A DNA stretch of 56,582 bases from Gemmatimonadetes bacterium SCN 70-22 (GTDB lineage: Bacteria; Gemmatimonadota; Gemmatimonadetes; Gemmatimonadales; Gemmatimonadaceae), in the NCBI GenBank assembly GCA_001724275.1, contig MEDZ01000034.1, positions 1-56,582 of the forward strand. The letters are read 5' to 3'. A program made the position numbers and the translations under genes. The notes under the pieces were generated by a model that saw only the letters and a program-made list of their open reading frames with translations, did no database searches and was not told the origin of the DNA. Positions 21,424 through 30,704 of the stretch are shown here, in pieces; positions within the stretch are counted from its first letter, which is position 1, and every line of letters starts with the position of its first letter.

Positions 21424-21725
21424 GGGATCCTCCGGAATGACACGATGTGGGTGCACCCATGAATGGCACGCCCCGTGCCCCACGCGGACCCGTGGAATCA
21501 CAACGACTTAGCGTGAGGGGTGTCTCCCCTGCGGACAGTCGGGTGTCCACTCGGGGTCACGATGCGGGGAATGACGCGGGGAAGGACGCGGGGACAGACG
21601 CGGGGACGGACGCGGGGACGGACGCGGGGACGGACGCGGGCGGGCGACGTCACCGGCCGAGACGCTCCGTTGCGCGCCACCTGCACCGCCCGCCAACTTC
21701 CAGACTCACCTGCCAGGACACCAAC
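21424..21725. other. Divergent intergenic region with minisatellite
   Basis: About 300 bp between the lipoprotein and the peroxiredoxin. It contains the 12-bp array at 21561-21644. I cannot place a confident promoter for either gene; no RNA gene is seen. Confidence 0.5.
21561..21644. repeat. 12-bp tandem repeat, 7 units
   Basis: Unit gacgcggggacg; three perfect adjacent copies with variants on both sides. It ends 81 bp before the peroxiredoxin ATG. The frame of that gene is open through it, but the signal peptide at 21726 marks the start. Confidence 0.9.
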
Positions 21726-22313
21726 ATGCGATCCACTTCGATCGGGGGCGTGACGATGGCGGCCGCCATCGCGCTCGCCTTGGGGGGACCGTCGGTCGCC
21801 GGCGCGCAGCAGGCGGAGACGGGGCCGAAGGTGGGGGACGTCGCCCCCGACTTCACCCTCCGCGGCGTCACGAAGGACGGCCCCATGCGCGACGCGATCA
21901 CGCTCTCGAAGTACCGGGGCAACACCGTCGTCCTCGCCTTCTTCTTCAAGGCGCGGACAAAGGGTTGAACGGTCCAGATGGAGGCGTACCGTGATCAGTA
22001 CGCCACGACCTTCAATGGGGGGAAGCACGTCACCCTCATCGGGATCAGCGTCGATCCCGACACCACGCTCCAGTCGTGGATGAAGGACGCGAACTTCCCC
22101 TTCATCTTCGCCAGCGATGCCGACGGTGCGGTGGGAACGCTGTACGGGGCCTACCTCCCCGCGAACAAGACCGACAATCGCTCGCTGTACGTGATCGCCC
22201 CCGACGGCCGCATCGCGTACAAGGCGCAGCCGTTCCGCCAGATGTCGGCCGAGGCCTATACCGAGCTCGCGGCCGCCATCGACAAGCTGTCGCCCGAAGC
22301 GGGGAGGCGCTGA
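21726..22313 (+). CDS. Exported peroxiredoxin, predicted selenoprotein (in-frame TGA at codon 81)
   Basis: One frame runs from ATG 21726 to TGA 22311-22313 (195 residues) interrupted once by TGA at 21966-21968, codon 81. The N-terminus is a signal peptide (cleavage AGA-Q), then the AhpC/TSA start GDVAPDFTLRGVTKDG and VVLAFFFKARTKG. The TGA falls exactly where peroxiredoxins have the peroxidatic Cys of T-x-x-C, followed by TVQMEAYRDQY, as in BCP-like proteins. Downstream, VTLIGISVDPDTTL, FPFIFASDADGAVGTLYGAY and SLYVIAPDGRIAYK complete the fold. No Cys occurs anywhere else, so a 1-Sec mechanism is implied. A hairpin at 21983-22004 fits a bacterial SECIS. A nonsense mutation or sequence error at this one codon is the alternative. 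Confidence 0.8.
21966..21968 (+). other. Predicted selenocysteine codon (TGA)
   Basis: In-frame TGA at codon 81 of the peroxiredoxin, in the context TKG-U-TVQM. The family has the redox-active Cys at this position. The gene stays open and family-like on both sides of it. Confidence 0.75.
21983..22004 (+). promoter_or_regulatory. Candidate bacterial SECIS hairpin
   Basis: A 7-bp perfect stem GGCGTAC/GTACGCC closes an 8-nt loop CGTGATCA. There are 21 nt between the TGA and the loop, and G is the second loop base. From memory this meets the bacterial SECIS model (apical loop about 16-37 nt after UGA, G in the first two loop positions). An alternative weaker stem ACGGT/ACCGT (21969-21991) overlaps it. 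Confidence 0.55.
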
Positions 22314-22360
22314 GCGAGCCTCCCCGGCTCCCCTCCCCCGGGCTCCGCTCGCCCCGACGC

Positions 22361-22395
22361 ACCGCCCCGGCGCCCGTGCCGGGGCGGTCTGCGTT
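22361..22395 (+). terminator. Intrinsic terminator after the peroxiredoxin
   Basis: An 11-bp perfect stem ACCGCCCCGGC/GCCGGGGCGGT with a 6-nt loop, followed by CTGCGTTT. It separates the selenoprotein gene from the kinase. Confidence 0.75.
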
Positions 22396-22404
22396 TCGGC
22401 GATG

Positions 22405-22410
22405 TAGGTT
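22405..22410 (+). promoter_or_regulatory. TAGGTT -10-like element, leaderless spacing
   Basis: TAGGTT, then 6 nt, then ATG 22417. With initiation about 7 nt after the -10, the transcript would start at the ATG itself. No Shine-Dalgarno is present. Confidence 0.55.
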
Positions 22411-22416
22411 TGGGCC

Positions 22417-23757
22417 ATGACCGCCGCCCGCCACCTCGCCGAGTCGCTGTTCGACGCCGCCGTGCGCGCCGCCGACCCGTACGCCGCCACGCGCGCGACG
22501 CTGGAGGGACGCGCGTTAGGCGCCCGCCCCTGGATCCTCGCCGCCGGCAAGGCGGCGCTCCCGATGGCCCGGGCCGCGCTCGATGCGCTCGCCGTGGCGC
22601 GCCGGATCCCGGCCGGCGGGGTGGTCATCGCCGCCGACCTCCCCCGCGGCGCCGAGGGCGAGGTGACCCCGCTGGTCGCGATGGCCGGCGACCATCCGCT
22701 CCCCGGCGAGCGTTCACGGGCGGCGGCCGAGGCGCTCGGGGCCGCCGCCCGGCTGGTGCGCCCCGGCGACGACGTCCTCGTCCTCCTGTCGGGCGGTGCC
22801 TCGAGCCTGATGGCGGCACCGGTCGAGGGGATCTCGACCGAGGCGATGCTCGGGCTCTTCCGAGGGCTGCACCGCGCGGGGGCCCCGATCGACGTGATGA
22901 ACGCGTTCCGCAAGCGGGTGCTGCGATGGGGGGGCGGGCGGCTGGCGAGCGCCCTCGCGGGGGCGAAGGTCCAGGTCCTGATCGCCTCCGACGTGATCGG
23001 CGACGAGCCGTCGGCAATCGCCTCGGGGCCATGCAGTGCCGACCGCTGGCGGGCCGCCGACCTGATCGAACTGGCGCAGCAGCAGCGCCTCGGGGCCTAC
23101 CTGCCGCAGGAAGTGCAGACGTTTCTCGACCGCACGCTGTCGGGCGAGGTGGAGGAGACGCCGAAGCCCGGCAGTCCCGCGCTGGCGGGAGTCGAGGCTC
23201 GCGTGATCCTCGGGAATCGCCGCGCCCTCGAAGGAGTGGCGCAGGAAGGGATGCGGTTGGGGGTCGACGTCCGCGTGGCCCCCACGCCGATCACCGGGCG
23301 CGCGCGCAGCATGGGCGCGGCCATCGCCATGGCGGCGATGGCGGCGCGGAGTGCGGCGCCCATGCCGTCGCACCGCCCCCTAAACATCCCGTGCCGCCTT
23401 GCGCTGGTGTGGGGCGGGGAGACGACCGTCCCCCTCGGCGAGGGGCCGACCGGCACCGGAGGGCGGGCCCAGGAGTTGGCGCTGGCCGCGGCGCAGGCGC
23501 TGCACGAGCGTGGCGCGGAGGGGCGCGGGATCACCATACTCTCGGCGGGGACCGACGGGCGAGATGGCCCCACCGATGCGGCCGGAGCCGTCGTGGACGG
23601 CACGACGTGGACGCGCATCGCCCTGGCCGGGCACGCTCCGCTGCGCGCCCTCGAGCAGCACGATGCCTACCCGGCGCTCGACGCCGCCGGGGCCCTGCTG
23701 CGCACGGGGATGACGGGGACCAACGTGAACGATGTGGTGATCGCGCTGGTGGAGTGA
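22417..23757 (+). CDS. Glycerate 2-kinase (type II, MOFRL/DUF4147)
   Basis: A 446-aa protein with the DUF4147 N-terminal domain (ILAAGKAALPMARAAL; GDHPLPGERSRAAAEAL; VLVLLSGGASSLMAAPVEGI) and the MOFRL C-terminal domain (ALVWGGETTVPLGEGPTGTGGRAQELALAAA; ILSAGTDGRDGPTDAAGAVVD). It phosphorylates D-glycerate at C2 to 2-phosphoglycerate, often annotated as GckA/GlxK2 or hydroxypyruvate reductase. It feeds glyoxylate or serine-derived glycerate into lower glycolysis. The gene appears leaderless and stands alone between a terminator and the aguB promoter. Confidence 0.93.
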   Translation: MTAARHLAESLFDAAVRAADPYAATRATLEGRALGARPWILAAGKAALPMARAALDALAVARRIPAGGVVIAADLPRGAEGEVTPLVAMAGDHPLPGERSRAAAEALGAAARLVRPGDDVLVLLSGGASSLMAAPVEGISTEAMLGLFRGLHRAGAPIDVMNAFRKRVLRWGGGRLASALAGAKVQVLIASDVIGDEPSAIASGPCSADRWRAADLIELAQQQRLGAYLPQEVQTFLDRTLSGEVEETPKPGSPALAGVEARVILGNRRALEGVAQEGMRLGVDVRVAPTPITGRARSMGAAIAMAAMAARSAAPMPSHRPLNIPCRLALVWGGETTVPLGEGPTGTGGRAQELALAAAQALHERGAEGRGITILSAGTDGRDGPTDAAGAVVDGTTWTRIALAGHAPLRALEQHDAYPALDAAGALLRTGMTGTNVNDVVIALVE

Positions 23758-29912: not shown

Positions 29913-30704
29913 GTGCCTAGACAAGCCAGCGCCCCACCCGCCGTCCTGCTCCTGAGCGGAGGGCTCGACTCCACGACACTCCTCGCGGTCGCCCAGCGCG
30001 ACGGCCATGCGGTGCACGCCCTGTCGTTCCGCTACGGCCAGCGCCACACGGCCGAAATCGCCGCCGCCGAACGGGTGGCGCGCCACTTCGGCGTGGCGCG
30101 ACACGTGATCGTCGATATCGACCTGCGAATCTTCGGCGGGTCGGCGCTGACGGCCGACATCGAGGTGCCGAAGGACCGGCCGCTGGACGACCCGTCGGCC
30201 GGGATTCCGGTGACGTACGTCCCGGCGCGCAACACCATCTTCCTGTCCTACGCCCTGGCGTGGGCCGAGGTGCTGGGGGCCGCCGACATCTTCATCGGGG
30301 TGAACGCGCTGGACTACAGCGGCTATCCGGATTGCCGGCCGGCGTACGTGGCCGCCTTCGAGCGCATGGCGAACCTGGCGACGCGCGCCGGGGTGGAGGG
30401 GACGCGACCCATCCGGGTGCGCACCCCGCTGATCGACCTCACCAAGCGGCAGATCATCGAGCTGGGGACGTCGTTAGGTGTGGACTACGGCCTCACGACG
30501 TCCTGCTACGACCCGGCCGCCGATGGCGCCGCCTGCGGCCACTGCGACGCCTGCCAGTTGCGCCGCCGCGGCTTCGCCGAGGCGGGGATTCCCGACCCCA
30601 CGCGCTACGCCGATTCGCCCGCCCCTGCCATCGCTCGCCCCGCGAACACCGCCGGTGCCAGCGCCCTCCCGTCTCCCGACTCCCGCCTCGCGTCTCGCCG
30701 CTAG
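29913..30704 (+). CDS. queC: 7-cyano-7-deazaguanine synthase
   Basis: A 263-aa QueC. The PP-loop ATP-binding motif SGGLDSTT is at 15-22; [29 protein letters not shown] and [11 protein letters not shown] are family hallmarks. A four-Cys zinc site lies in [16 protein letters not shown] and the following [10 protein letters not shown]. It makes preQ0 from 7-carboxy-7-deazaguanine, ATP and ammonia. GTG 29913 is the start. The C-terminus carries a Pro/Ser-rich extension not typical of the family. The stop is directly adjacent to the queE ATG. Confidence 0.96.

Follow-up and report, generated by a model that had tools for sequence, protein, structure and literature searches.

Evidence for a bacterial SECIS within the coding frame of a selenocysteine-containing peroxiredoxin of Gemmatimonadota

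The window, by which we mean the whole stretch of DNA analysed (56,582 nucleotides; contig C34 of an 84-contig, 4.70-Mb genome), contains a peroxiredoxin gene with an in-frame TGA at its active site, and the question raised by this locus is whether the hairpin found just behind this triplet directs the insertion of selenocysteine (Sec). We are highly confident that positions 21983–22004 constitute a bacterial SECIS belonging to a Sec peroxiredoxin gene, with SelB-mediated Sec insertion at the TGA at 21966–21968. The relevant features, all on the forward strand, are the following.

21726–22313, forward strand: putative Sec peroxiredoxin gene (AhpC/TSA), 195 residues with Sec as residue 81 and an N-terminal export signal, terminating at its own TGA
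21966–21968, forward strand: in-frame TGA predicted to be read as selenocysteine, within a TxxU active site (residues T-K-G-U)
21969–21982, forward strand: spacer of 14 nt from TGA to stem, constant in length in all homologues and partly variable in sequence
21983–21989, forward strand: 5' arm of the SECIS stem, GGCGUAC (DNA GGCGTAC), in which 3 of 7 pairs change on both sides while pairing is kept
21990–21997, forward strand: apical loop of the SECIS, CGUGAUCA (DNA CGTGATCA), 8 nt, positions 2–3 carrying the motif G[U/G]
21998–22004, forward strand: 3' arm of the SECIS stem, GUACGCC (DNA GTACGCC), on the same basis as the 5' arm

The gene product matches PF00578 of Pfam with an E value of 4.5e-26 and 91.7 bits, against a cut-off of 26, when the frame is read through the TGA in translation. 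We have collected homologues from the same family, from a genome collection and from a phylum-wide spread, and read them in DNA, which after de-duplication left 186 distinct Gemmatimonadota sequences with TGA and 45 with TGC or TGT at the aligned site. The 186 TGA homologues, spanning many genera and several families of the phylum, align across the frame and keep it intact on both sides of the triplet, and the Sec of the TxxU motif aligns with the peroxidatic cysteine of the other 45. The protein encoded in the window has no cysteine at all, and a second cysteine is likewise absent from the aligned part of all 186 Sec proteins. Together with the signal-like N-terminal stretch MRSTSIGGVTMAAAIALALGGPSVAGA, noted by inspection of the translation, this suggests that the product most likely works as an exported peroxidase with a single Sec, an external thiol taking on the resolving step. 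A 12-bp tandem repeat (GCGGGGACGGAC, 6.4 copies) lies at 21552–21640, some 90 bp before the gene's start codon.

The Sargasso Sea survey (PMC1088965) already recorded Sec peroxiredoxins of the TxxU type, which figure in later lists as well (PMC13188914; PMC5029168). The window protein shares with this known class (PMC1088965, PMC13188914) the AhpC/TSA domain (PF00578), Sec at the peroxidatic position, the TxxU motif and the existence of Cys homologues, but differs from it in having a signal peptide, no second cysteine and no proline of the PxxxTxxU motif, the latter being replaced by phenylalanine at residue 74 (codon 21945–21947). This proline is present in 50 of the 186 Sec homologues, the other 136 having Phe, Tyr or other residues, in contrast to all 45 Cys homologues, which retain it; parsimony indicates several gains and losses. 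Since the proline is absent, the protein is filed as a TxxU peroxiredoxin rather than as a full PxxxTxxU member, and the gene is, judging from its sequence, a Sec peroxiredoxin of the TxxU type that departs from PxxxTxxU in the protein. The name of the PrxU equivalog (NF040737) was rejected, as the score of 58.3 bits falls short of the curated cut-off of 270.

The published model of the bacterial SECIS (Zhang and Gladyshev 2005, restated in PMC13188914, Fig 2) calls for a loop of 3–9 nt, a stem of 4–16 bp, a G within the first two loop positions that is usually followed by G or U, a distance from UGA to loop of 16–37 nt and an energy of −7.5 kcal/mol or lower. We have coded these constraints directly and applied them to the hairpin, which satisfies all five: the loop has 8 nt, the stem is a perfect one of 7 bp, loop positions 2 and 3 are G and U, the loop lies 21 nt from the TGA and the energy of the bare hairpin is −10.3 kcal/mol. 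The stem begins at the 15th nucleotide after the TGA, so that the geometry described in an earlier note made from the sequence alone (the 7-bp perfect stem, the 8-nt loop with G in second place and the distances of 15 and 21 nt) is borne out in every detail; the note took these distances to be those required by the published bacterial SECIS model. Within a stretch of 41 nt the RNA folds into exactly this 7-bp hairpin plus a minor stem of 3 bp, at −13.7 kcal/mol.

Taken as a single sequence, such a fold is close to what chance provides. Dinucleotide shuffles folded at least as well as the 41-nt stretch in 13 of 200 cases, a hairpin conforming to the SECIS model and at least as stable follows 71 of the 910 TGA triplets of the GC-rich window (7.8%), and when the next 20 codons are recoded synonymously, 16.4% of the versions carry an equally good hairpin, since the codons preferred for E-A-Y ... 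Y-A complement one another. These figures speak for a rival explanation in which the TGA is a normal stop codon, or arose by sequencing error or by mutation in a pseudogene, with GC-rich DNA folding into the hairpin by chance. However, an active-site TGA shared by 186 distinct homologues, with an intact frame on either side, is at odds with this explanation, as is the Sec machinery described below, which is present in the genome and co-occurs with the Sec forms; we thus consider it extremely improbable. As the single-sequence hairpin is near chance, the case for a SECIS rests on comparative evidence. An Rfam scan of positions 21500–22600 gave chance-level matches only and none to a SECIS family, and no similar DNA was found in a phage collection.

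The comparative evidence consists in part of compensatory changes in the stem, which the earlier note had proposed to look for in homologues. The outermost pair, formed by the third bases of codons 86 and 93, is G-C in 112 of the 186 Sec sequences, U-A in 25, C-G in 17, A-U in one and unpaired in 31. On a protein tree built without the SECIS segment this pair shows 20 changes, of which about 12 are swaps from one Watson-Crick pair to another on both sides, as counted in one parsimony reconstruction of a short protein. Changes on both sides were likewise observed at two further pairs: pair 2 goes once from G-C to A-U by way of two amino-acid changes in L171, where one Ala becomes Thr and another becomes Val, and pair 4 goes to A-U, a G-U form being also present. 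In a 50-sequence alignment, none of 500 shuffles reached the observed covariation score or percentage of paired positions, and sliding the partner by 1–3 columns destroyed the covariation signal; RNAalifold, given no structure beforehand, arrives at this 7-bp stem too. At four of the seven positions the pair never varies and therefore yields no covariation evidence. The earlier note had held that a lack of covariation, or loss of the hairpin in close Sec-containing homologues, would speak against the hairpin; what we find is covariation, and a stem with 6–7 paired positions in all Sec homologues. In 25 Sec sequences (L105, L099, L275, L279, L285 and relatives) the outermost position is A-A, and 6 bp therefore seem to suffice there.

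A further set of results concerns the contrast between Sec and Cys homologues. The inner six pairs are intact in 185 of the 186 Sec sequences but in only 3 of the 45 Cys sequences. Every Sec homologue has G at loop position 2, followed by U in 179 of them and by G in 7, so that the sole alternative to GU is GG, as the published G[G/U] rule allows, whereas 37 of the 45 Cys homologues have GC at these positions. In agreement, codons 87–92 of the Sec set are nearly fixed (GCG 99%, TAC 100%, CGT 96%, GAT 98%, CAG 100%, TAC 98%), as compared to a maximum fixation of 94% among conserved codons outside codons 82–96. Such conservation could in principle reflect protein constraint on the YRDQY residues combined with codon bias and have no RNA role, since the Sec proteins indeed show little or no variation at Y88, R89, D90, Q91 and Y92, and this near-invariance partly accounts for the scarce variation of the inner pairs and of loop positions 4–8. 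Nevertheless, the fixed CGT and GAT are locally uncommon (CGT 14 against CGC 148; GAT 20 against GAC 130), Cys homologues with the same Arg89 and Asp90 mostly use CGC (84%) and GAC (74%), and covariation of the outer pair links codon 86 with codon 93, which leaves protein constraint by itself with a very small probability in our judgement.

Several observations stand beside this comparison. Codon 84 (21975–21977), outside the hairpin, is CAA in 84% of the Sec and CAG in 91% of the Cys homologues; CAG is the common codon, and the window gene itself has it. The genome also retains a Cys paralogue (L024, G000:C9:14317–14877), which is 53% identical and whose codons differ over the SECIS region; a TAG recorded inside this paralogue is merely its terminator. 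Tandem Cys and Sec copies a few tens of bases apart occur in G038:C38, G021:C146, G025:C83, G031:C7, G036:C14, G037:C19 and others of genus g7, and in G028 both copies are Cys forms.

Two secondary proposals of the earlier note fared less well. One was an alternative pairing, ACGGU with ACCGU (21969–21973 with 21988–21992), which could be the functional structure or form a two-state switch with the hairpin. Both halves are present in the window species and overlap the stem, but across the Sec homologues one of the pairs is an A-C mismatch in 86 of 186 and a second has other mismatches in 47 of 186, with no covariation, and we give this pairing hardly any credence. The other was that ACA and GGT, rare codons just ahead of the TGA, fit constraint on the RNA; these are not conserved, occurring in only 20 and 17, respectively, of the 186 Sec homologues. 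The constrained uncommon codons sit instead after the TGA, namely CGT and GAT in the loop and, in relatives, CAA at codon 84. The preferred reading remains that of a 7-bp SECIS stem closing an 8-nt loop, and the SECIS-like identity put forward by the earlier note is upheld by the five constraints, the covariation, the tie to TGA as opposed to Cys codons and a full Sec machinery.

This machinery comprises a tRNA-Sec (65.6 bits, with its anticodon UCA confirmed by ARAGORN) and the genes for SelB (313 bits), SelA (528 bits) and SelD (384 bits), with selD adjoining the tRNA-Sec gene (loci L017, G000:C53:11412–12332, and L001). Within the family and among the matches listed, selA was detected in 81 of 90 genomes with a Sec peroxiredoxin, as against 3 of the 43 that have Cys forms alone (Fisher p 1e-21). 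The nine Sec genomes without detected selA are mostly fragmented or incomplete, although three of them are listed at 91–96% complete, and missing sequence may account for the absence of selA there. What the computation shows directly is the structure, its covariation, its tie to the TGA and that the genome holds the machinery. In the window ARAGORN also reports a 97-nt tRNA-Ala at 30324–30420 with the anticodon AGC, unusual in bacteria, which is probably a false positive.

The selD gene (G000:C53) itself is crossed by an in-frame TGA, behind which the short hairpin GGUC-CGGGU-GACC can form, and SelD is therefore probably a selenoprotein here. Its SECIS would be served by the same SelB and resembles that of the peroxiredoxin in that a short stem of GC type (GGUC/GACC) stands behind a TGA in frame and that G is the second base of the loop (CGGGU); it differs in the shorter stem, the 5-nt loop and the lack of evident sequence similarity. 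A covariance model of the peroxiredoxin SECIS run over the genome returned the known site, the Cys paralogue at an E value of 0.5 and one chance-level match, so that this sequence is not common to other genes of the genome.

From what is known of Sec decoding in bacteria, the binding of SelB, the recoding of the UGA and the action of the peroxidase may be pictured as follows. With the ribosome at the UGA (21966–21968), SelB carrying Sec-tRNA-Sec would bind the G/U at loop positions 2–3, presented on the 7-bp stem, and would deliver selenocysteine in place of termination; in the resulting exported peroxidase the single Sec would attack the peroxide. Being itself part of the coding sequence, the stem dictates the choice among synonymous codons there, and sometimes the amino acid too.

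The element thus has the features of a bacterial SECIS in general, standing in frame just after the UGA with a 7-bp stem, an 8-nt loop carrying G and then U or G at positions 2–3, a 21-nt spacing and an energy under the threshold. It differs from the generic one in that four inner pairs and nearly the whole loop (CG[U/G]GAUCA) are frozen phylum-wide, beyond what the model requires: these four pairs and loop positions 4–8 vary hardly or never in the 186 Sec sequences, and neither loop position 6 (the third base of GAT) nor the preference at codon 84 is demanded by the published model. Based on this frozen loop and inner stem, we tentatively raise the possibility, in our estimate rather unlikely, that the SelB of Gemmatimonadota reads more bases than G[G/U] and represents a lineage-specific recognition class; linked to this would be a tolerance of Sec peroxiredoxins for loss of the active-site proline, which is never seen for the Cys forms of the sample.

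Both the kind of element, a bacterial SECIS, and the protein family, Sec peroxiredoxins, are already known, and it is the instance that appears, on sequence grounds, new and well supported. No description of this gene from Gemmatimonadota, Gemmatimonadetes or Gemmatimonas was found in the open-access literature, judged by title and abstract, and within the literature searched the Sec-Prx SECIS is apparently undescribed for the phylum.

For the phylum, these results suggest that a predicted exported selenoprotein peroxiredoxin is widespread in Gemmatimonadota, and gene finders that take TGA as a stop will split or drop it. The 186 Sec and 45 Cys versions of one segment amount to an unusually clean natural data set for the bacterial SECIS, in which the rules for loop and stem, as well as those for the exchange of Sec and Cys, are therefore directly testable, and in which the RNA constraint switches on and off with the Sec or Cys codon.
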